A stretch of DNA of 64,000 nucleotides from contig NZ_AP024325.1 of assembly GCF_018408855.1 (NCBI RefSeq), positions 992,001 through 1,056,000 on the forward strand, given 5' to 3'. The first letter of the stretch is position 1, and each line of letters begins with the position of its first letter. The stretch comes from Caballeronia sp. NK8 (lineage in GTDB: Bacteria > Pseudomonadota > Gammaproteobacteria > Burkholderiales > Burkholderiaceae). A model generated the notes under the pieces. The model was not told the origin of the DNA. It did not search any database and saw only the letters and a list, made by a program, of their open reading frames with translations. Position numbers and translations under genes: made by a program. Positions 50,414 through 59,117 of the stretch are shown in pieces.

Positions 50414-51058
50414 ATGACCGCATCGAACGCCGTACTCGCGATTCTGTTCTCGCTGCTGCTCGGCGCGATGATCCCCGGACCGAGCTTCGTGGTCGTGGCG
50501 CGCAACGCCATAGGCATATCGCGCGCCGATGGTCTCGCGACCGCGCTCGGCATGGGTGTGGGCGGCATCTTCTTCGGCGGCATCGCGCTCGCGGGACTCT
50601 ATACCCTGCTGGTCGCCGTGGAGTGGCTCTACATCGCGCTGAAGGTCGCGGGCGGCCTCTATCTGATCCACATTGCGTGGAAGATCTGGCGCGGCGCCGC
50701 GCAGCCGATGCATATGCCGACTCGCGACGATGCGCCCGCGCTGACGAGAAGCGCACGCAAATCCTTCTGGCTCGGACTCACCACGCAACTGAGCAATCCG
50801 AAGACCGCCATCTGGTACGGCAGCATCTTCGCGGCGCTTCTGCCGCAGCATCCGCCGCTGTGGTGCTATTTCGTGCTGCCGCCCATGGTCTTCGCGATCG
50901 AGACGGGCTGGTACACCGTCGTCGCGCTGGGATTTTCCAGCCAGCGGCCGCGCGATATGTATCTGCGCGCGAAGAAGTGGATCGATCGCATTGCGTCGAG
51001 CGTCATCGCGGCGCTCGGCTTGCGCCTCGTGCTCACGGCCGGCAGAACTGGTTTGTAG
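50414..51058 (+). CDS. LysE/RhtB-family amino-acid exporter
   Basis: The 214-residue protein has about six hydrophobic helices and the family motif GAMIPGPSFVVVARNAIGISRADGLATALGMGVGG. The ATG at 50414 has GGAGGA 8 bp upstream. Members export amino acids or homoserine-like compounds through the inner membrane. A conserved downstream segment LTTQLSNPKTAIWYGSIFAAL fits the family. The upstream direct repeats suggest ligand-controlled expression. Confidence 0.9.
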   Translation: MTASNAVLAILFSLLLGAMIPGPSFVVVARNAIGISRADGLATALGMGVGGIFFGGIALAGLYTLLVAVEWLYIALKVAGGLYLIHIAWKIWRGAAQPMHMPTRDDAPALTRSARKSFWLGLTTQLSNPKTAIWYGSIFAALLPQHPPLWCYFVLPPMVFAIETGWYTVVALGFSSQRPRDMYLRAKKWIDRIASSVIAALGLRLVLTAGRTGL

Positions 51059-51103
51059 TTCGGCATTCAGAACACAAAAGTCAAAACGCCATCAGGCATT
51101 CCG

Positions 51104-51145
51104 AATGCAAAAAACCGGGACGCACGCCCTAACGCACGTCCCGGT
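51104..51145 (-). terminator. Terminator between the LysE gene and the Gly-Gly small-protein gene
   Basis: ACCGGGACG (51114-51122) and CGTCCCGGT (51137-51145) are perfect 9-base arms around a 14-base loop. On the minus strand the stem is followed by TTTTTT, giving a Rho-independent terminator for the small-protein gene. On the plus strand the following CTCCTCTC makes a weaker signal for LysE. Confidence 0.8.
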
Positions 51146-51177
51146 CTCCTCTCACAGGCGGCTTCCGAAGCCACGCG

Positions 51178-51372
51178 TCACAGCGGATGCAGCTTGCCGT
51201 CGAGGTCCATCGTCCATTGCGAGCCGTCCTTGAACGTCAGCACGCCGCTATTGGCGTCGATATGAATCGGCCTGCCGGCCGGCTCCTTCTTGTCGCCTCC
51301 AAAGATGCGGGACATCTCGGAAGAGGACAGATCCTCGGCATGTTCCAGATCGTCGAGCTTCAGGTTCGCCAT
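51178..51372 (-). CDS. 64-aa protein with Gly-Gly leader-like N-terminus, predicted sigma-54 controlled
   Basis: The protein begins MANLKLDDLEHAEDLSSSEM and reaches Gly25-Gly26 after RIF, the layout of a double-glycine leader, followed by 38 polar residues (DKKEPAGRPIHIDANSG, FKDGSQWTMDLDGKLHPL). The start has AAGGAGA upstream. It has its own -24/-12 element and a strong terminator, and is divergent from the sigma-54 activator gene. No peptidase-transporter or RiPP enzyme other than PqqD is in the window. It could be an exported small protein or a modified peptide precursor; the family is not recognised. Confidence 0.7.
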   Translation of the reverse strand: MANLKLDDLEHAEDLSSSEMSRIFGGDKKEPAGRPIHIDANSGVLTFKDGSQWTMDLDGKLHPL

Positions 51373-51444
51373 GGGGTTTCTCCTTGTGATGCGTGAGCAA
51401 GCGTTTGCTTGAATCGAGCGTATGGTGCGCTCGCCATGGTTCTT

Positions 51445-51460
51445 TGCATCGTGCATGCCA
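51445..51460 (-). promoter_or_regulatory. Predicted sigma-54 promoter of the Gly-Gly small-protein gene
   Basis: On the minus strand TGGCATG-CACG-ATGCA places GG and GC exactly 12 bases apart, as in the -24/-12 consensus. It lies about 75 bp before the small-protein ATG. The -12 half is ATGC rather than TTGC, so it is the weakest of the four sites in this region. Confidence 0.6.
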
Positions 51461-51632
51461 ATGATCGCTACGTCGGCTGCGAGCCTTATGCAGCGGTCCG
51501 TCGATGCAAACGCACGCGGTCTTTCGAACTGGCAAGTCGCACGCGGGCCAACACAACACACGCGATGCTGTCGCCACCGCGACGACACCGGCATCCTTTC
51601 GATTGACTGACACACACGATCGCGCCGCTCTT

Positions 51633-51648
51633 TGGCGCAGGACTTGCT
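51633..51648 (+). promoter_or_regulatory. Predicted sigma-54 promoter of the activator gene
   Basis: TGGCGCA-GGAC-TTGCT, followed by TTTTT, has GG at 51634-51635 and GC at 51646-51647 with correct 12-base spacing. It lies 58 bp before the activator start at 51706, suggesting that the activator controls itself. The interval 51373-51705 (333 bp) holds this site, the divergent site and no gene. Confidence 0.7.
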
Positions 51649-51705
51649 TTTTATCCGCGCTCACACATCCGGCGATACGACCGGCACTTGCACATGGAGG
51701 AGAGG

Positions 51706-53661
51706 ATGCAAGACGATATCCGCGAGATCGCGGTTACTCACGAAGAACCTCACGAAGAACGAGAGAGCGGCTGGCTCATTCCGTCGATCCGCAAGGCGCA
51801 CGAGCGTTCCGAAACCTTCGGACTGAACGCGTCGACACGGCCCGACTACGACGTTCTTACCGAAGGCGATCTGCTGCTCAAGCTCGATCAGAACCGCGTG
51901 CTGTGCGCGCACGCGACGCCGGTGATGGAAACGCTGCGCGAACAAATCGTCAACACGCAAAGCATGATCGTGCTGACTGACGCTCAAGGTCTGATTCTCC
52001 ATTCGACCGGCGACGACGATTTTCTCGCGCGCGCCGAGAAGGTCGCGCTGCGCGCCGGCGCGAACTGGGCGGAGGAACGGCAAGGGACCAATGCGATCGG
52101 CACGGCGATCGCGGAACGTTGTCCGACCGTCGTGCACGGCGCCCAGCACTATCTCGCCGCCAATCGCTTTCTCACCTGCTCCAGCGTGCCGATCCTCGAT
52201 CCATACGGCGATCTCATCGGCGTGCTCGACGTCACCGGCGATCATCGCAGCTATCATCGGCACACCATGGCGCTTGCGCGCATGTCGGTGCAGATGATCG
52301 AGAACCACCTTTTTTCCAGCACGTTTCAGGGCATGCTGCAGATCGCGTTTCACAGCCGCCCCGAGTTTCTCGGCACGCTGATGGAAGGCATCATGGCCTT
52401 CACGTGCGACGGACGCTTTCTCTCGGCCAACCGCAGCGCGCAGTTTCAGTTCGGCTTGCCGCTTTCCTCGCTGCGCGCGCATACGCTGTCGTCGCTGTTC
52501 GGGCTCACGAGCGCGCAACTGATCGATCGTTCGCATGCGAGCCGCGCGCCGCATCTGCCCCTCGACCTCAACAACGGCACACGCGTGTGCGCACGCGTGC
52601 GCCTGAACCGCGCGCCGCTCGCCGAGATGGCTGCCACGCACGTCGCGGCCAGACCCGCGCCGCGCGCATCGACTGCGCTCGATGCCTCATCGAAGCTCGC
52701 CTCGCTCGACACCGGCGATACCAGGGTGTCGGCCGTCATCGGCAAAGTGCGCAAGGTCATCGGCAAGGACATTCCGATCCTCATCACGGGCGAAACCGGC
52801 ACGGGCAAGGAACTGCTCGCCCAGGCTATTCACAGCGATTCGCCGCGCCGCGCGGGGCCATTCGTCGCGGTGAACTGCGCATCGATTCCGGAAAACCTGA
52901 TCGAGTCGGAACTCTTCGGCTATGAGGAAGGCGCGTTCACGGGCGCGCGACGCAAGGGCGCGGCCGGCAAGCTCTTGCAGGCGAACGGCGGCACGCTCTT
53001 TCTCGACGAAATCGGCGACATGCCGTATCCGCTGCAAGTGCGCCTGCTGCGCGTGCTGCAGGAACGCGTCGTCGATCCGCTCGGTTCGAGCAAATCGATA
53101 CCGGTCGATGTCGCCATCATCTGCGCGACGCACCGCAATCTGCGCGAGATGATCGAACAGAACCGCTTTCGCGAGGACCTCTATTACCGCCTGAACGGAC
53201 TCGTCGTGAAGCTGCCGCCGTTGCGCGAACGTACCGACCTCGCGACCGTGATCACGAAGATGCTGCACGCCGTGAGCGCCGATGAAGCGTGCGGCATGCC
53301 CCTGTCGATCGACGATGAAGTCATGGCGCTCTTCGAGCGCTACGCGTGGCCCGGCAACTTCAGGCAACTGTGCAACCTGCTGCGCACGGCGGCCGCGATG
53401 GTGGATGACGACGGCTGCATCCGTCGGGAACATCTTCCGGAAGATTTCTTCGAGGAAACCCGCGTCGGCGCGCAAGGCCCGTCTGAAGCATGCGTTCCAT
53501 CGGCGCTTGCGTCAGGGCGTCTCCAGGAAGTCACGGCATCCGTGATCGCTGCGGCGCTCGCGCGGCATCGTGGCAATGTATCGGCCGCTGCACGCGCGCT
53601 GGGGGTTTCGCGCAACACGATTTATCGCAAGATGCCCGCCTGTTCAACGATGGAGCAATGA
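51706..53661 (+). CDS. Sigma-54-dependent transcriptional activator, AcoR-like (GAF-AAA+-Fis)
   Basis: The 651-residue protein has a GAF-like sensor (about 60-210; GANWAEERQGTNAIGTAIAE is the typical AcoR-family segment), a middle region, and an AAA+ domain with Walker A GETGTGKE near 359 and GAFTGA near 409, the loop that contacts sigma-54. The C-terminus is a Fis-type helix-turn-helix (RHRGNVSAAARALGVSRNTIYRKM). The ATG at 51706 has GGAGG 5 bp upstream; ATG 51694 is an alternative. Sites with -24/-12 spacing before itself, pqqA, the dehydrogenase and the small-protein gene make these its likely targets. Confidence 0.9.
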   Translation: MQDDIREIAVTHEEPHEERESGWLIPSIRKAHERSETFGLNASTRPDYDVLTEGDLLLKLDQNRVLCAHATPVMETLREQIVNTQSMIVLTDAQGLILHSTGDDDFLARAEKVALRAGANWAEERQGTNAIGTAIAERCPTVVHGAQHYLAANRFLTCSSVPILDPYGDLIGVLDVTGDHRSYHRHTMALARMSVQMIENHLFSSTFQGMLQIAFHSRPEFLGTLMEGIMAFTCDGRFLSANRSAQFQFGLPLSSLRAHTLSSLFGLTSAQLIDRSHASRAPHLPLDLNNGTRVCARVRLNRAPLAEMAATHVAARPAPRASTALDASSKLASLDTGDTRVSAVIGKVRKVIGKDIPILITGETGTGKELLAQAIHSDSPRRAGPFVAVNCASIPENLIESELFGYEEGAFTGARRKGAAGKLLQANGGTLFLDEIGDMPYPLQVRLLRVLQERVVDPLGSSKSIPVDVAIICATHRNLREMIEQNRFREDLYYRLNGLVVKLPPLRERTDLATVITKMLHAVSADEACGMPLSIDDEVMALFERYAWPGNFRQLCNLLRTAAAMVDDDGCIRREHLPEDFFEETRVGAQGPSEACVPSALASGRLQEVTASVIAAALARHRGNVSAAARALGVSRNTIYRKMPACSTMEQ

Positions 53662-53778
53662 GGTGTTCCACTTCGCTACACCCGTGTCCCGAAGAAGCAC
53701 AACGAGGTCACGACACTGACGAATCATCGAAACCGGACTGAAAGCCAACAGCGTGCACATGCACGGTCAATTCATCGA

Positions 53779-53794
53779 AGGCATGGAGCTTGCA
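53779..53794 (+). promoter_or_regulatory. Predicted sigma-54 promoter of pqqA
   Basis: GGCATG-GAGC-TTGCA has GG at 53780-53781 and GC at 53792-53793, the exact -24/-12 spacing, followed by TTTT. The predicted start of transcription is near 53805, about 50 bp before the pqqA ATG. It lies 118 bp after the end of the sigma-54 activator gene. Confidence 0.72.
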
Positions 53795-53856
53795 TTTTCG
53801 AGGTCCGGTTGCGAAACGGTTCGCGATCTCACTCGAACATCATCCAGGAGATGAAC

Positions 53857-53931
53857 ATGCAATGGACGACACCGGCATTCACCGATCTGCGCTTCGGCTT
53901 CGAAATCACGATGTATATCGCGACACGCTGA
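53857..53931 (+). CDS. pqqA: PqqA, precursor peptide of pyrroloquinoline quinone
   Basis: The 24-residue peptide reads [20 protein letters not shown] followed by IATR. Glu16 and Tyr20 in the Glu-Ile-Thr-Met-Tyr segment are the residues joined by PqqE and rearranged into PQQ. The ATG at 53857 is preferred because AGGAG sits 6-7 bp upstream; an in-frame ATG at 53851 is directly next to that site and adds Met-Asn. It is too short for usual gene callers. It follows a sigma-54-like promoter and precedes a strong hairpin and pqqD. No pqqB, pqqC or pqqE is present in the window. Confidence 0.93.
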
Positions 53932-53948
53932 TGCTGCGATGAAAGCGC

Positions 53949-53971
53949 GCCCGGGTCGATCGAACCCGGGC
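53949..53971 (+). terminator. Strong stem-loop between pqqA and pqqD
   Basis: GCCCGGGT and ACCCGGGC form a perfect 8-bp stem around CGATCGA. The downstream ACGTCCCCTTCTCTTT has few consecutive T residues, so partial termination or 3'-end protection of the pqqA mRNA is more likely than full termination. It lies 17 bp after the pqqA stop and 25 bp before pqqD. Confidence 0.7.
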
Positions 53972-53996
53972 ACGTCCCCTTCTCTTTCCGCTCCTC

Positions 53997-54266
53997 ATGA
54001 ACACCACGACTGCGCCCGCGCGGCCACGCTTGCGTGCGCCACTGAAGCTGCACTGGCATGCGGACATGAGCACATGCGAGATCGTGCATCCGCGCGGCAG
54101 CGTCGAACTCAACCGCAGTGCGGGCGAAATAATCGCGCGCTGCGATGGCACGCGCGAACTCGACGACATCATCGGCGAAATCGAAACGCGCTTCGGCACG
54201 TCGGGACTCGCCGCGGATGTGTATCGCTTCATCGATGAAGCCCGCCGCCTCGGCTGGCTCGACTGA
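53997..54266 (+). CDS. pqqD: PqqD, PqqA-binding peptide chaperone (RiPP recognition element)
   Basis: The 89-residue protein has the PqqD winged-helix pattern: LKLHWHADMSTCEIVHPRG, VELNRSAGEIIARCDGTREL and DDIIGEIETRFG, ending YRFIDEARRLGWLD. PqqD binds PqqA and presents it to the radical-SAM enzyme PqqE. In the canonical cluster PqqB and PqqC stand between pqqA and pqqD; here they are missing and only 65 bp separate the two. PqqE must come from elsewhere in the genome if this pair takes part in PQQ synthesis. Confidence 0.9.
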   Translation: MNTTTAPARPRLRAPLKLHWHADMSTCEIVHPRGSVELNRSAGEIIARCDGTRELDDIIGEIETRFGTSGLAADVYRFIDEARRLGWLD

Positions 54267-54413
54267 ACCCGCACTGTCACATCGGGCAACACGCCGGACG
54301 TCTCACTGCTCCACGATGCAACACACGAACATCAACGCCACGTGGCGGGCCTCTGCATGACATCGTCCAAGAGAACCACATGCAGCAAGGCACGCACGCA
54401 CATGCATCGTCAA

Positions 54414-54429
54414 TGGCACATGACTTGCC
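54414..54429 (+). promoter_or_regulatory. Predicted sigma-54 promoter of the PQQ alcohol dehydrogenase gene
   Basis: TGGCACA-TGAC-TTGCC has GG at 54415-54416 and GC at 54427-54428, the exact -24/-12 spacing, and a perfect TGGCAC core. It lies 78 bp before the dehydrogenase ATG, giving this gene its own promoter in addition to read-through from pqqA-pqqD. The 241-bp gap before the gene holds no credible coding sequence. Confidence 0.75.
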
Positions 54430-54507
54430 TTGATGACGTCGCAACCGTTTCGGATGGCTATCGAGATTCAAAGAAGACGTCGCACCGATAATACCCAGGA
54501 GACAACG

Positions 54508-56247
54508 ATGAAGATCCGCTTCAGTCCGGCAATGCGCATCGCGGCCCTTGCTGCAGGCGTCGCTGCCACATTCACACTCGTTCAGCAGCATGCCATCGCG
54601 GCGGGCAGCACGCCTGCGCAGTATCCGGAAGTCAGCTATGAACGTCTCACGAGCGCTCAGGATGATCCGGGCTGGCTGACCTACTACCGCACGTATAACG
54701 GTCATGGACACTCGCCGCTCAAGCAGATCGACACGACGAATGTGAAGGGCTTGAAGCAGGCATGGAGCTACAAGTTTCCCAAGGACTTGCAGCAGGGCTT
54801 CGAAGCGACGCCCATCGTCAACGGACGCTTTCTCTTCGTGACGACGCCCAAGGACAACGTTTATGCCTTCGATGCCGCAACCGGCAAACAGCTCTGGAAA
54901 TACGAGCCGAATCTCGATGCAAGATCGTTCAAGACCGCATGTTGCGATGTGATCAATCGCGGTGTCGCCTTGTACGGCAAGAACGTCTACGTCGCGATGC
55001 TGAACGGCGAAGTGGCCGCGCTCGATGCGCAAACGGGCGCGCTCGTATGGAAGAAGGCGATGTTCGATCCGGGCACCGGCTATGCGTTCTCGCTTGCGCC
55101 GCTCGCGCTGGATGGCGCGCTCGTCGTGGGCAGTGCGGGTGGCGAGTATGGCGCGCGCGGCTTCATCGCGGCACTCGATCCAAACGATGGCAAGGTGCTG
55201 TGGAAGCGCTTTACCGTGCCCGGCGCGAAGGAGCCCGGCGGCGACACCTGGCCCGATGGCATGCAGGAACACGGCGGCGCGCCCGCATGGCTCACCGGCA
55301 CCTATGACGCCGCGAGCAAGACGCTCTATTGGGGCGTGGGCAATCCGGGACCGTGGCTCGCGGATCTTCGTCCCGGCGACAACCTCTATTCCGATTCGCT
55401 CCTCGCGCTCGATCCGAAAACCGGCGACCTCAAGTGGCACTATCAATACACGACGCATGACACGTGGGACTATGACGGCGTGAACACGCCCGTGCTCGCG
55501 AACATCAAGTATCAGGGTAAGGATTACGACGCGATCATTCACGCGGACCGCAACGGCTTCTTTCATGCAATCGATCGCAGCAACGGCAAGCTGATCTACG
55601 CGCGGCCCTTCGTCACCGCGACATCGGTCACGGGTTACACGGACGATGGCAAGCCGATTCAGGATGCATCGAAGTACCCGAAGACGGGCACGACCATCGA
55701 AACATGTCCGAGCTTTCTCGGCGGCAAGAACTGGTGGTCCGTTTCATACGATCCGCAAACGCATCTCGCGATCGTACCCGCCTTGCATGCGTGCATGTCC
55801 CTGTCGGGCAAGTCGGTGACTTACATGGAAGGTCTGCCCTATCTCGGCGAAGGCTTCGAGATCAAGCCCGAGCCCGGCAGCAAGGGCTACGGCGAGTTGC
55901 AGGCTATCGATGTCGATACCGGCAAGAAAGTCTGGAGCCACTGGAGCAAGCTGCCGTGGAACGGCGGCGTCGCGACGACGGCGGGCGGTCTCGCATTCAG
56001 CGGCTCGCTCGACGGCCATCTCTATGCGTTCGACGAAAAGACCGGCAAGGTCCTGTGGCAAAGCCCCAAGCTCGCGAGCGGCATAATCGCGCAGCCTTCG
56101 GTGTACGAGATCGACGGCAAGGAATACGTCGCGATCCTCGCGGGCTACGGCGGTGCGAATCCGATCTGGGGCGGCCCGATGGCGAAGGCCGCCGACAAGG
56201 TCCCGCGCGGCGGCACGCTCTATGTGTTCGCGCTCGATCGCACCTGA
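54508..56247 (+). CDS. PQQ-dependent alcohol dehydrogenase with lanthanide-type active site
   Basis: The 579-residue protein has a signal peptide (to about Ala32) and an eight-bladed quinoprotein propeller. Cys145-Cys146 (KTACCDVINRG) is the adjacent disulfide that packs on PQQ. Glu213 in GGEYGARG, Asn279 in WGVGNPGPW and Asp321 in HDTWDYDGVN are the metal and catalytic positions. Asp323, two after the catalytic Asp, is the residue that marks lanthanide-dependent enzymes (XoxF, ExaF/PedH); calcium enzymes have a small residue there. It should oxidise primary alcohols in the periplasm. An AGGAGA site lies before the ATG at 54508. Electrons probably pass to the fused cytochrome protein downstream. 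Confidence 0.92.
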   Translation: MKIRFSPAMRIAALAAGVAATFTLVQQHAIAAGSTPAQYPEVSYERLTSAQDDPGWLTYYRTYNGHGHSPLKQIDTTNVKGLKQAWSYKFPKDLQQGFEATPIVNGRFLFVTTPKDNVYAFDAATGKQLWKYEPNLDARSFKTACCDVINRGVALYGKNVYVAMLNGEVAALDAQTGALVWKKAMFDPGTGYAFSLAPLALDGALVVGSAGGEYGARGFIAALDPNDGKVLWKRFTVPGAKEPGGDTWPDGMQEHGGAPAWLTGTYDAASKTLYWGVGNPGPWLADLRPGDNLYSDSLLALDPKTGDLKWHYQYTTHDTWDYDGVNTPVLANIKYQGKDYDAIIHADRNGFFHAIDRSNGKLIYARPFVTATSVTGYTDDGKPIQDASKYPKTGTTIETCPSFLGGKNWWSVSYDPQTHLAIVPALHACMSLSGKSVTYMEGLPYLGEGFEIKPEPGSKGYGELQAIDVDTGKKVWSHWSKLPWNGGVATTAGGLAFSGSLDGHLYAFDEKTGKVLWQSPKLASGIIAQPSVYEIDGKEYVAILAGYGGANPIWGGPMAKAADKVPRGGTLYVFALDRT

Positions 56248-56321
56248 CCCTTCCTGATCGAACCGCGAGCGCGCATCGTCGTGCGCTCGCGGTGTTCATC
56301 GACCTCATCGGACGCTTCGAC

Positions 56322-57539
56322 ATGAATCAATCCCTCAACTTCATGCGTGCCGTGTGCATGCTGGCCGCATGCATCGCCCTCACGCCGTCGGCATCCGATG
56401 CCGCCGTGAAGATCTGCACGTTTCCCGGCAGTCCGTCAGCTGCGCTGGATCGCAGCGTCGCGCAAGCGGTCTTCGCACGCGCCAACATCCCCGCGACCTT
56501 CGTCTCCAACGGAATAGGCGAAGGCGACGACGATGGCGTGTCGATCAAGGAACTCGACAAGACGCTCGCACGCGCATGCGATGTGATCGCCGGCTTCCCG
56601 CGCTCCGCCGTCGCCGATGCATCCGGCGGCAAGATGCAGTTTTCGCACGGCTATTTGCGTGCTGGCTATGTGAGCATCGAAGCTCCCGGCGCGGAACTGA
56701 AGGACGCCGCGAAGCGTACGGTCGCCGCGACCTACGCAAGCCCCGCGCAACTGATCGCCGTGCAACAGCCGGACGTGACGCTCGATCTCGAGAACACATC
56801 GGCATCGACGGTCGAAGCGGTGGCCAACGGTCGCGCGCAACGTGCGATCGTCTGGTATCCCGCGGTCGTTGCTTATCGCATCGCGCATCCGGAGCGCAGC
56901 TTCACCGTTGCGAACGCGGACTCACCGTATGCGGACTGGCATCTGGCGTTCGCATTCAGCGATAGAAGCGCCCCGTTGCGTGGACGCATCGACGATGCGC
57001 TCAAGGCAATGACCAACGACGGCCGCTTGCAGGCGCTGACGAAGCAATGGAGCTTGCCCGCGCAGACCGCTTCGGCTGCGCGCTATCTCGACACGCCGTC
57101 GACGGCATCGTTCCAGCATGGCGGCATCATGCTCGCGGATGCCAGCACAGCGCGCGCGGGACGCTTCATCAAGGTCGCGAACGAAGGCGCCGTCGAGCCG
57201 CCCACCTTCGAGCAGGCGCAAACGACGCACGGCAAGACCCTCTATTCGAGTTCGTGCGCGAAGTGTCACGGCGCGCAACTCCAGGGCATGACCGCGCCCG
57301 CGTTGCAGGGACCGTCGTTCGCACCGGCATCGAACTCGCATCTCACGGTAGGCGGCATCTTCAACTACATGGCGACCAACATGCCCGCGGATCGTCCCGG
57401 CAAGATGAAGGATCAGGACTATGCTGACATCATGGCGTTCCTGCTGATGTCGAATGGCTACAAGCCGGGTGGATCGAAGATGACCGCCGACAGCGCGCGC
57501 GCGTCGAAGCTGCCGCTCAACGCGGGACCCGCCCATTGA
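56322..57539 (+). CDS. Fusion of XoxJ-like periplasmic binding domain and cytochrome c domain
   Basis: The 405-residue protein has a signal peptide (1-28, ending SDAAVK), a solute-binding-type domain (about 29-245) resembling XoxJ/MxaJ (FPGSPSAALDRSVAQAVFAR, ACDVIAGFPRSAV, SPYADWHLAFAF), a linker, and a class I cytochrome c domain with CAKCH at 312-316 and a likely axial Met in ATNMPADRPG. XoxJ and the electron-accepting cytochrome XoxG are normally separate proteins beside XoxF. Here they are one chain, 74 bp after the dehydrogenase. It probably helps activate and drains electrons from the dehydrogenase. Confidence 0.88.
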   Translation: MNQSLNFMRAVCMLAACIALTPSASDAAVKICTFPGSPSAALDRSVAQAVFARANIPATFVSNGIGEGDDDGVSIKELDKTLARACDVIAGFPRSAVADASGGKMQFSHGYLRAGYVSIEAPGAELKDAAKRTVAATYASPAQLIAVQQPDVTLDLENTSASTVEAVANGRAQRAIVWYPAVVAYRIAHPERSFTVANADSPYADWHLAFAFSDRSAPLRGRIDDALKAMTNDGRLQALTKQWSLPAQTASAARYLDTPSTASFQHGGIMLADASTARAGRFIKVANEGAVEPPTFEQAQTTHGKTLYSSSCAKCHGAQLQGMTAPALQGPSFAPASNSHLTVGGIFNYMATNMPADRPGKMKDQDYADIMAFLLMSNGYKPGGSKMTADSARASKLPLNAGPAH

Positions 57540-57550
57540 AATCGTCGACT

Positions 57551-57581
57551 TGATTACATCACGACGTGACATATAATCAAA
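57551..57581. repeat. Inverted repeat after the XoxJ-cytochrome gene
   Basis: TTGATTA (57551-57557) and TAATCAA (57575-57581) are perfect 7-base arms around 17 bases. The stretch is AT-rich and lies between the cytochrome fusion gene and the small membrane-protein gene. It may be an operator for the latter. Confidence 0.5.
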
Positions 57582-57665
57582 ATGTCGCGCGGGGCGGATC
57601 GACATCGGCCGCGGCGTGATGCAATGCGCAATTCGGCCGGCTCGAGCCGGCGGGAGGCCAGCGTC

Positions 57666-57851
57666 GTGCTGATCAACAATGATTTCGAAATCGGCTATCT
57701 TGTCGTGGTTTTCGCTTTGCTCGGCGTCATCCTGATCGGCGCGCTACTCACGGCGCTGCATCTGGATCGCTGGCATCCGAAGCTCATCAGCGCAGCCATC
57801 GGGGCGCTACTCGGGCTTGCGCTGATCGAAGCGGTCCCGATGCTCACCTGA
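57666..57851 (+). CDS. Small two-helix membrane protein (GTG start)
   Basis: The 61-residue protein begins with GTG at 57666, 8 bp after GGGAGG; an ATG at 57624 lacks a good site. It has two hydrophobic helices (about 10-30 YLVVVFALLGVILIGALLTA and 38-58) joined by a short charged loop with HLDRWHPK. I do not recognise a family. It lies 126 bp after the XoxJ-cytochrome gene and before a strong hairpin, so it may be the last gene of the PQQ unit. Confidence 0.6.
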   Translation: MLINNDFEIGYLVVVFALLGVILIGALLTALHLDRWHPKLISAAIGALLGLALIEAVPMLT

Positions 57852-57896
57852 CGACACACCCTGACGTTTCGTCGAGACTTCGGTTCGTCGCGATAC

Positions 57897-57944
57897 CGGG
57901 GCGGCACGCATGTTCAGCAAGAAAAGAACATGCGTTCCGCCTCG
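57897..57944 (+). terminator. Large hairpin closing the PQQ gene unit
   Basis: Two 19-base arms (57897-57915 and 57926-57944) pair with two mismatches around a 10-base loop, followed by TTCCTGTTTT. It lies 45 bp after the small membrane-protein gene and about 120 bp before the FUSC gene. Confidence 0.78.
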
Positions 57945-58067
57945 TTCCTGTTTTCCCTGAACATCCTCTTTCGACTCGCGCGCCGTGCTGCATTGGCATA
58001 ATGCAGCACCGGGCGCGCGCATGCGCGTCTTCATCGTCTGATCCGTTTCATCACCGACCCGGACCGC

Positions 58068-59117
58068 ATGACCGCGATCACCCGCACCCGACGCAAATTA
58101 CGCACGTTTTTCGGCGCGCCCGAAGCAAGACGGCTTCTGCGCACCCTCATGAGCTGCGCGATCAGCTATGCCGCCGCGCGGCTCGCCACGCTGCCCGAAG
58201 GATACTGGGCGCTCATCACGACGCTCGTGATCGTCACGCAGCCGAGCCTCACGCAAGCCGTCGATACCGCGCGCGATCAGATCATCGGCGCATTCATCGG
58301 CGCGGTGGCGGGCGTGCTCGGCATCGTCGCGATGGAGCGTGGCGCGCCGCCGCTCGCCGTCTTTTCGGTCGCGCTCGTGCCGCTCGCCGCGTTGAGCGCC
58401 AAGCGCCCCGCGTTCAGGCTCGCATGCGTGACGCTCGTGATCGTCGTGCTGATTCCGGCAGGCCCGGGATCGCCCTTCGAGCGGCCGATGCATCGCGTGC
58501 TGGAGATATTGATCGGCGCGGCATCGTCGTTCGTCGTGTCGGCGCTCTGGCCGAATCGCGCGCTCGAAGCCGCGCATCGCAGCGTCGCGGATACCTTGAA
58601 GAGTCTCGGTCAGCTGATCGGCCTGTATCTGTCCGGCGCACCGGACGAAGCCCGCGCGATGCGCCTCGAAACCCACAGCACGGACGCTCAGAAAGCACTC
58701 GACGATGCGTTGAAGGAAGCCGAACGCGAGCACATCATCGTGCTGGTGCAGAACCGGCGCTCCGACGCCATCGACAAGGCCGCGCCCTTCCTGCGGCGCC
58801 TGCATGGCGACACGGCCTTTCTTGCAAAGGCCGTATCGCGCCTCGATCGCGAGCTATGCGCGGCCCGCCTCGGCGATACGGGCCGCAAGCTACAGGCTTT
58901 GTTCGAGACACTCGCGAGCGTGCTCGCGTCGAATCATCAGGAAGAAGCGCGGCTCGAACCCGTACGCGCGGCCGTCAGTGAACTCAAGGACATGCTTGCA
59001 GCGCAGGAGTCGGCGCATGGCGCGCAGGAAGTGGCGCAGTTCGTCGTCGGGCTGATCGTCGCGGATCTCGATGCGCTGATCGCGACGATCTATCCGCCGA
59101 AGGAATCATCGGCCTAA
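58068..59117 (+). CDS. FUSC/aromatic-acid exporter family membrane protein
   Basis: The 349-residue protein has N-terminal helices in the fusaric-acid-resistance/aromatic-acid-exporter pattern (YWALITTLVIVTQPSLTQAVDTARDQIIGAFIGAVAGV) and four or five more hydrophobic segments to about 170, then a long cytoplasmic helical domain. Proteins of this group export aromatic or organic acids. Its stop overlaps the stop of the PLP enzyme gene by 4 bp on the opposite strand. Confidence 0.8.
   Translation: MTAITRTRRKLRTFFGAPEARRLLRTLMSCAISYAAARLATLPEGYWALITTLVIVTQPSLTQAVDTARDQIIGAFIGAVAGVLGIVAMERGAPPLAVFSVALVPLAALSAKRPAFRLACVTLVIVVLIPAGPGSPFERPMHRVLEILIGAASSFVVSALWPNRALEAAHRSVADTLKSLGQLIGLYLSGAPDEARAMRLETHSTDAQKALDDALKEAEREHIIVLVQNRRSDAIDKAAPFLRRLHGDTAFLAKAVSRLDRELCAARLGDTGRKLQALFETLASVLASNHQEEARLEPVRAAVSELKDMLAAQESAHGAQEVAQFVVGLIVADLDALIATIYPPKESSA

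Follow-up and report, generated by a model that had tools for sequence, protein, structure and literature searches.

How is a lanthanide-type alcohol dehydrogenase switched on? In the literature consulted, lanthanide enzymes are controlled by two-component systems that operate a metal switch, and a review of rare-earth biology describes such systems (PMC11845868). A locus in Caballeronia sp. NK8 raises the question again. The window, a 64,000-nucleotide stretch of this 9.2-Mb genome (G000:C4:992001-1056000), contains at 51633-57539 a module in which the gene for a sigma-54 enhancer-binding protein (EBP) is followed by pqqA and pqqD, associated with the cofactor pyrroloquinoline quinone (PQQ), by the gene for a PQQ alcohol dehydrogenase with a lanthanide signature, and by a gene for a cytochrome fusion protein. 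An earlier note on this DNA had drawn the module from 51178 to 57944; its core genes stood, but its outer ends did not, and the natural unit is the shorter interval. Sequence comparisons suggest that the activator, of the EatR/AcoR type, probably co-induces PQQ-precursor supply, the lanthanide enzyme, and aldehyde removal via sigma-54.

Gene content of the module

The EBP gene (51706-53661, plus strand, 651 aa) encodes a GAF domain, a sigma-54 AAA+ domain carrying the GAFTGA motif (Sigma54_activat, 232 bits), and a Fis-type helix-turn-helix. No curated equivalog fits it, as the 25 listed of its 28 NCBIfam matches (DhaR, PrdR, NorR, and others) are all below their cut-offs, and by its sequence it is filed no further than as a sigma-54 enhancer-binding protein of the EatR/AcoR type. 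The pqqA gene (53857-53931, plus strand) encodes a 24-aa PQQ precursor peptide with an E-x3-Y core, which belongs to the PqqA family by its TIGR02107 score (46.4 bits; cut-off, 20) and its conserved Glu and Tyr. The product of pqqD (53997-54266, plus strand, 89 aa) is a diverged PqqA chaperone, scoring above the cut-off for TIGR03859 (63 bits versus 46) and below that for NF002535 (56.6 versus 101). The dehydrogenase gene (54508-56247, plus strand) encodes a PedH/ExaF-like PQQ alcohol dehydrogenase of 579 aa with the lanthanide D-x-D signature, a member of the PQQ methanol/ethanol dehydrogenase family (TIGR03075, 576 bits; cut-off, 480) whose closest relative at this locus among the matches listed, from C. 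pedi, is 98% identical. The last gene (56322-57539, plus strand, 405 aa) encodes a periplasmic binding-protein-like domain joined to a c-type cytochrome. The set of genes named in the earlier note (sigma-54 activator, pqqA, pqqD, PQQ dehydrogenase with lanthanide signature, and cytochrome fusion) was thus confirmed by domain and family searches.

Sigma-54 promoters

Candidate −24/−12 elements were scored as the number of positions matched, of 12, to the consensus TGGCACGNNNNTTGCW, with GG and GC obligatory. Elements scoring 10/12 precede the EBP gene (TGGCGCAGGACTTGCT, 51633-51648, plus strand), pqqA (AGGCATGGAGCTTGCA, 53779-53794, plus strand), the dehydrogenase gene (TGGCACATGACTTGCC, 54414-54429, plus strand), and a neighboring 64-aa open reading frame (ORF) on the minus strand (51445-51460). 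Only six sites of at least 10/12 occur on both strands of the whole 64 kb, and these four are among them. A sigma-70-like scan returned one site, at 57550 before the next ORF, where 1.7 were expected.

Conservation of the elements was assessed in 84 loci, consisting of 80 from a scan of named genomes (the best 80 of 235 dehydrogenase relatives, to which the counts of gene order and conservation refer), three others, and the window locus itself. With a threshold of at least 9/12 in the 400 bases upstream, and with genes having fewer than 150 upstream bases dropped before counting, an element precedes the dehydrogenase gene in 84/84 loci, the EBP gene in 64/66, pqqA in 66/71 (in L098 at a different position), and the 64-aa gene in 9/9. 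The cytochrome gene, which served as an internal control, is preceded by one in only two of the 84 loci, and in 400-base windows taken at random from these loci, real sites included, the rate is 10 to 14%. Across loci, the spacer bases differ and the GG and GC are constant. These comparisons indicate that the −24/−12 elements are real, and all four that had been proposed for this region were upheld.

A shared palindromic site upstream of pqqA and the dehydrogenase gene

Upstream of pqqA, the related loci are enriched for the dyads GTGT-N11-ACAC and TGTT-N9-AACA. A symmetric weight matrix was built from 57 pqqA-upstream sites in 46 loci and applied with a threshold score of at least 10. Before the dehydrogenase gene, which was outside the training set, a site was found in 74/84 loci, compared with a mean of 1.0/84 in shuffles. 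The other genes seldom have one (EBP, 4/66; pqqD, 1/54; cytochrome gene, 2/84; 64-aa gene, 0/9), the remaining 56 kb of the window has none at this threshold, and only 0.6% of random 300-base windows of module-free sequence contain one. The sites often occur in pairs, for which the commonest spacing is 21 bp at pqqA and 31-32 bp at the dehydrogenase gene (about two and three helical turns, respectively). The median distance from the best site to the −24 element downstream of it is 107 bp for pqqA and 99 bp for the dehydrogenase gene.

In the window, the main predicted activator site of pqqA, GTGTTCCACTTCGCTACAC (53663-53681, score 21.0), is flanked by a second predicted site that overlaps the EBP gene at its 3′ end (53640-53658, score 12.4) and by a weak further one 21 bp from the main site (53684-53702, score 6.3). 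The dehydrogenase gene has two predicted sites, at 54274-54292 (score 10.3) and, 32 bp away, at 54306-54324 (CTGCTCCACGATGCAACAC, score 15.6). A scan of the host genome with the site consensus, allowing up to two mismatches, gave 415 matches compared with 338 for the reversed pattern, and the sole exact match is the main site of pqqA. Judged by its form and position, the upstream site looks as a sigma-54 activator binding site should, and, found independently before pqqA and the dehydrogenase gene, it ties these two genes to one regulator. The EBP and 64-aa genes are not tied to that regulator here, since their promoters lack the site.

Elsewhere in the host genome, two identical perfect palindromes, GTGTCCCAAGTCGGGACAC, lie 148 bases apart at G000:C3:844803 and 844951 (L205); they are perhaps sites of another activator of the same type.

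Conservation of the arrangement

The comparison of gene order across Burkholderiaceae that the earlier note had suggested as a check found the arrangement conserved in dozens of related genomes. It is no oddity of one genome: a sigma-54/EBP-linked unit of a lanthanide-type PQQ alcohol dehydrogenase with its own pqqA and pqqD is conserved across related loci and recurs in Caballeronia, Paraburkholderia, and Burkholderia. Together with one metagenome-assembled genome binned as Ralstonia, these genera make up the 80 loci, among which the cytochrome fusion is found in all 80 (fragmented or cut in L071 and L128), the EBP in 72, pqqA in 67, and pqqD in 52. Wherever the EBP gene and pqqA are both present, pqqA lies downstream of the former on the same strand (64/64). 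Either gene is absent from 16 loci, nine of which (L091, L099, L101, L103, L104, L105, L107, L108, and L128) are at a contig or stretch end; L106, L114, and L115 have the EBP without a pattern-detected pqqA, and L071, L098, and L129 have pqqA without the EBP. In public annotation, Caballeronia sp. M1242 has the sigma-54 regulator, pqqA, PQQ dehydrogenase, cytochrome, and an aldehyde dehydrogenase, with no pqqD, and P. largidicola has the regulator, pqqD, and the dehydrogenase.

Beyond these genera, locus L159, from a different family of the order, brings together an EBP 56% identical to that of the window, pqqA, and a 42% identical dehydrogenase gene. The last two genes are each preceded by a −24/−12 element and the upstream site, and two weak extra sites occur elsewhere in the 18 kb. 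In L160, a 12/12 element precedes the dehydrogenase gene near a 48% identical EBP, with no upstream site scoring at least 10.

Proposed mechanism and identity of the activator

In the proposed mechanism, the EBP would bind the palindromic sites before pqqA, the dehydrogenase gene, and exaC, which encodes an acetaldehyde dehydrogenase, and contact the RNA polymerase-sigma54 complex by looping. It would turn on PqqA and PqqD, providing more PQQ precursor for the PqqC and PqqE encoded elsewhere; the lanthanide dehydrogenase and its cytochrome, for periplasmic alcohol oxidation; and ExaC, by which aldehyde would be removed.

The inclusion of exaC draws on the distribution of the two promoter features. 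An ExaC-type gene is found in 17 of 86 loci stretches, preceded by a −24/−12 element in 16 and by the upstream site in 11 of the 17. The window locus is without exaC, and the only ExaC over the cut-off in the host is encoded on the same contig at a distance of about 145 kb, behind a −24/−12 element and two upstream sites (17.4 and 14.3). Among 25 genomes searched, ExaC over the cut-off was found in 19, of which 16 have both features before the gene, including 10/10 of those with the module.

Several observations weigh against this mechanism. Both features also precede exaC in six of the nine genomes scored as lacking the module. The count of upstream sites at pqqA (69/71) is circular, as pqqA was the training set; the −24/−12 counts come from related loci and are not independent events; and the conservation counts cover the best 80 of 235 relatives plus three others and the window. 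One locus, L096, has neither the EBP gene nor pqqA in its stretch. In L159, unlike the window, the upstream site also adjoins the −24/−12 element of the EBP gene, and exaC of that genome is without it. Three relatives of the dehydrogenase outside the Burkholderiaceae, from Aquabacterium, Variovorax, and Azospirillum (40-42% identical), have no EBP relative within 8 kb, so that the wiring, as traced by sequence, belongs to part of the Burkholderiales and not to lanthanide dehydrogenases generally. Finally, the signal assigned to the activator below is taken from a paralog with 62-64% identity.

That paralog, the closest to the EBP in the host genome, adjoins the gene for the ethanolamine ammonia-lyase EutB. 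EatR of Pseudomonas aeruginosa is an EBP with a −24/−12 promoter that senses acetaldehyde and not ethanolamine (PMC5821096). The earlier note had called the activator AcoR-like; the sigma-54, GAF, and Fis type was borne out, but the better model is EatR, because the closest paralog in the host lies beside eutB.

Because the site at exaC persists in genomes scored as lacking the module, a second protein probably recognizes the motif as well. The likeliest candidate is this EatR-like paralog, which could drive some of the promoters. An alternative is thus that the promoters are truly sigma-54 dependent but driven mainly by the paralog, or jointly by the two proteins through cross-talk, with the local EBP a redundant copy. 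The similarity of the two recognition helices (GISRTTLYRK versus GVSRNTIYRK) adds to its appeal, and EatR-like paralogs lie by exaC in G002, G008, and G012. However, G010 and G011 keep the sites at pqqA, the dehydrogenase gene, and exaC, although the matches listed for them include no paralog of roughly 60-65% identity, and this favors the local EBP as a reader of the sites. The invariable position of pqqA after the EBP gene points in the same direction, and no site scoring at least 10 occurs in the 13 kb in which the paralog lies (L161). Dominance of the paralog is therefore considered unlikely, although it is the strongest of the competing explanations.

Given an EatR-like nearest paralog and the sensing of acetaldehyde by EatR, the local EBP most likely responds to the aldehyde formed by the enzyme or to a short alcohol, and not to a metal. 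By analogy, the aldehyde product may quite possibly be the inducer, with the alcohol a weaker candidate.

Metal-dependent control is the basis of a second alternative, in which a metal or a two-component system would mainly set expression, after the pattern of ped/exa and mxa/xox, and sigma-54 would only tune it. The two-component systems MxbDM, MxcQE, and PedR2/S2 have been described (PMC11845868), and genes for histidine kinases or response regulators lie near the related dehydrogenase genes in Aquabacterium and Azospirillum. The module itself, however, holds no kinase or response regulator. A calcium-dependent partner, as a metal switch would need, was not seen either among the three soluble methanol/ethanol-type dehydrogenases read in the host genome (that of the module, a XoxF-like enzyme, and that of L053; weaker matches were left unread), all of which have D-x-D. 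This alternative is accordingly rated slightly below dominance of the paralog and is also unlikely.

Lanthanide signature and the cytochrome partner

The assignment of the dehydrogenase as a lanthanide enzyme rests on its signature. The window protein has WDYDG at residue 320 and a vicinal Cys pair at residue 145, and the motif W-D-[YF]-D-G is present in 87/87 extracted related dehydrogenases (80 from the named-genome loci and seven others). The best PDB match, 6zcw, is titled quinoprotein ethanol dehydrogenase and is presumably the lanthanide enzyme PedH. The dehydrogenase is thus, by signature, a lanthanide-type PQQ alcohol dehydrogenase. The extra Asp has been given as the mark of enzymes dependent on rare-earth elements or lanthanides (PMC11845868, PMC11996626), and the former source terms it a signature of such proteins. 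It would be improbable, given this invariant residue and the closest structure, that the enzyme is calcium dependent or metal promiscuous despite the Asp, although the open-access literature yielded no report of an assayed enzyme from this clade of Burkholderiaceae.

The partner protein had been described as a XoxJ-cytochrome fusion, a label of which the cytochrome half was retained: its C-terminal part is a one-heme cytochrome c with a single CXXCH at residue 312. The XoxJ half proved unsupported, with TIGR03871 scoring 19 bits where 212 are required, an hhalign probability of 9% (E 0.0036), and no BLASTP match to the XoxJ of the host genome itself (E 0.26). The N-terminal 250 residues resemble a periplasmic binding protein, with matches to SBP_bac_3 (E 0.0085) and TIGR03871 (E 8e-4) that fall short of the cut-offs. 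Residues 25-250 used as a query matched 285 protein clusters, and among the 120 listed, all but six have a cytochrome Pfam domain and two have PF00497. In view of these weak matches and the Pfam domains of the relatives, "binding-protein-like domain fused to cytochrome c" is a fair description by sequence, and a remote link to XoxJ/MoxJ is possible on account of the two relatives with PF00497.

Cofactor supply

The window contains no pqqB, pqqC, or pqqE gene, so the module, as far as its gene content tells, cannot make PQQ alone. In the host genome, a single PqqE over the cut-off is encoded on a different contig (C2), together with pqqC and a typical pqqD; two pqqD and three pqqA genes were found in all, and pqqB was not sought genome-wide. 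The pqqA and pqqD genes of the module would thus raise the supply of precursor and chaperone for distant enzymes.

The two genes are at most 700 bases apart in 34/51 loci and more than 1200 bases apart in 17/51. In Paraburkholderia solitsugae, the gap between them is filled by pqqB and pqqC, and pqqE follows, all over their cut-offs and beside the EBP gene. Because of this complete set next to the EBP gene, the ancestor was likely a pqqABCDE operon under the same activator and the pqqA-pqqD doublet a reduced state, with pqqBC and pqqE probably lost from the compact loci; the direction of this change is inferred. Near the module of P. solitsugae, a TonB-dependent receptor gene (L075:2645-4930), with matches below cut-off to PqqU among others, is a candidate for PQQ or lanthanide uptake.

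A second pqqA of the host genome lies beside the cbbLS genes for RuBisCO (G000:C2:1338773; L051:11683-11698). It has its own −24/−12 element of at least 10/12 in 14/14 genomes. The conserved block upstream of it is a different one, beginning with GGGACACTTTG or a GGAACACTTTG-like sequence, and an AcoR-like activator 44% identical to the EBP of the module is encoded about 12 kb away. Upstream of xoxF (L148:7202; L176-L195), a palindromic block, TTGACACAGTATGTGTCG, is kept with few changes, and roughly 90-115 bases past it stands CGGCATGGAATATGCA, which scores 9/12 as a −24/−12 element and is identical in 20/20 sequences; xoxF may itself be a sigma-54 gene here.

Comparison with known systems and significance

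The ped cluster of P. putida (pedE/pedH, pedF, pedG, pedI, and pqqD-II) has similar parts, namely a lanthanide PQQ ethanol dehydrogenase, a c-type cytochrome, a binding protein, an aldehyde dehydrogenase, and an extra pqqD (PMC12997753). In contrast to the module, it is acted on by PedS2/PedR2, AgmR, and a YiaY/hybrid-kinase module (PMC6115532, PMC12997753), with PedS2/PedR2 controlling PedH (PMC6115532). The module has a sigma-54 activator of the one-component kind and an upstream site to go with it, the binding-protein-like domain and cytochrome in one polypeptide, and a local pqqA. The EatR/RpoN ethanolamine circuit of P. aeruginosa shares the sigma-54 EBP, the −24/−12 promoter, and acetaldehyde metabolism (PMC5821096), whereas the targets in the module are pqqA/pqqD, the lanthanide dehydrogenase, and the cytochrome; EatR is likened here by description and not by sequence. 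The gene for the PQQ alcohol dehydrogenase ExaA of Azospirillum brasilense is also sigma-54 dependent, but its partner is a LuxR-type response regulator (PMC6115532). BmoR of Thauera butanivorans, likewise compared by description and not by sequence, is an alcohol-regulated sigma-54 activator, but it drives an alkane monooxygenase (PMC6366067).

The earlier note had regarded the arrangement as unfamiliar. In the open-access literature, which leaves most subscription journals outside, no description of this wiring was found, and the portions of PMC6028718 and PMC12826043 drawn on hold nothing on it. However, a legend to an mxa/xox gene map already lists a GAF-modulated sigma-54 regulator (PMC11845868, Fig. 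1), for which the text of section 6 claims no role. The co-location of a GAF/sigma-54 regulator with mxa/xox has thus been drawn before, and the classes of regulator and enzyme are known.

If the proposed mechanism is true, control of a lanthanide enzyme in a large set of bacteria from soil and plants falls to a one-component activator that responds to the carbon substrate. The activator would then tie cofactor supply to production of the enzyme through induction of the PQQ precursor and chaperone alone. This bears on the signal for lanthanide enzymes outside methylotrophs and on whether the supply of PqqA and PqqD limits PQQ. A broader and more tentative proposal is that the Burkholderia group uses a metal-blind, substrate- or product-induced sigma-54 logic for lanthanide alcohol oxidation: an EatR-derived activator would co-induce the lanthanide dehydrogenase, exaC, and a stripped pqqA-pqqD pair that boosts flux through the distant PqqE, and a second, AcoR-like activator might do likewise for xoxF and the second pqqA in a methylotrophy/Calvin-Benson-Bassham cluster.

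Hairpins and neighboring genes

Hairpins had been proposed at the ends of the transcription units. A terminator-like hairpin with a T run (z −5.1) does lie 3′ of the 64-aa gene, and beyond 57848, at about 57897-57944, there is a strong one (z −3.75), but no notable fold follows pqqD (z −0.3) or the cytochrome gene (z −0.6). Within the module, a weak hairpin separates pqqA from pqqD (53945-53975, plus strand, z −1.9) and a strong one separates the dehydrogenase gene from the cytochrome gene (56262-56293, plus strand, z −4.3); because neither has a T run, both look like processing or attenuation elements and not ends. A general terminator scan was at the level of chance (7 found; 5.2 ± 2.1 expected), and Rfam at gathering scores gave no match in 50900-58100.

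The 64-aa ORF (51178-51372, minus strand) has a GG-leader-like N-terminus in addition to its own promoter and hairpin. Its product matches TIGR04149, a GG-leader family of ribosomally synthesized and post-translationally modified peptides (RiPPs), at 20.1 bits, under the cut-off of 25, and has ten matches among 5.8 billion proteins, itself included, all from Caballeronia where a species is given. The earlier note had counted it as a module member. That it is one, for example a lanthanide-binding or RiPP-like accessory, is very improbable: against its divergent −24/−12 element and weak RiPP match stand the complete lack of the shared upstream site, its presence in only eight of the 80 named-genome loci, and its persistence without an adjoining module in G009 and G013. 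In G009, the stretch equivalent to window positions 51801-57311 is gone and the 64-aa gene and both flanks remain; in G013, the module is on a different contig. The gene keeps its −24/−12 element in both genomes, as judged by eye. Membership in the module was rejected on these layouts and the missing site, and by comparison of the loci, the gene is a separate neighbor.

The deletion in G009 (L145:6053-6054) leaves short remnants of the activator and cytochrome genes and constitutes a natural knock-out of the module. Past the module, a small membrane protein-like ORF occupies 57582-57851 of the window, and this region is retained in the module-deleted G009.

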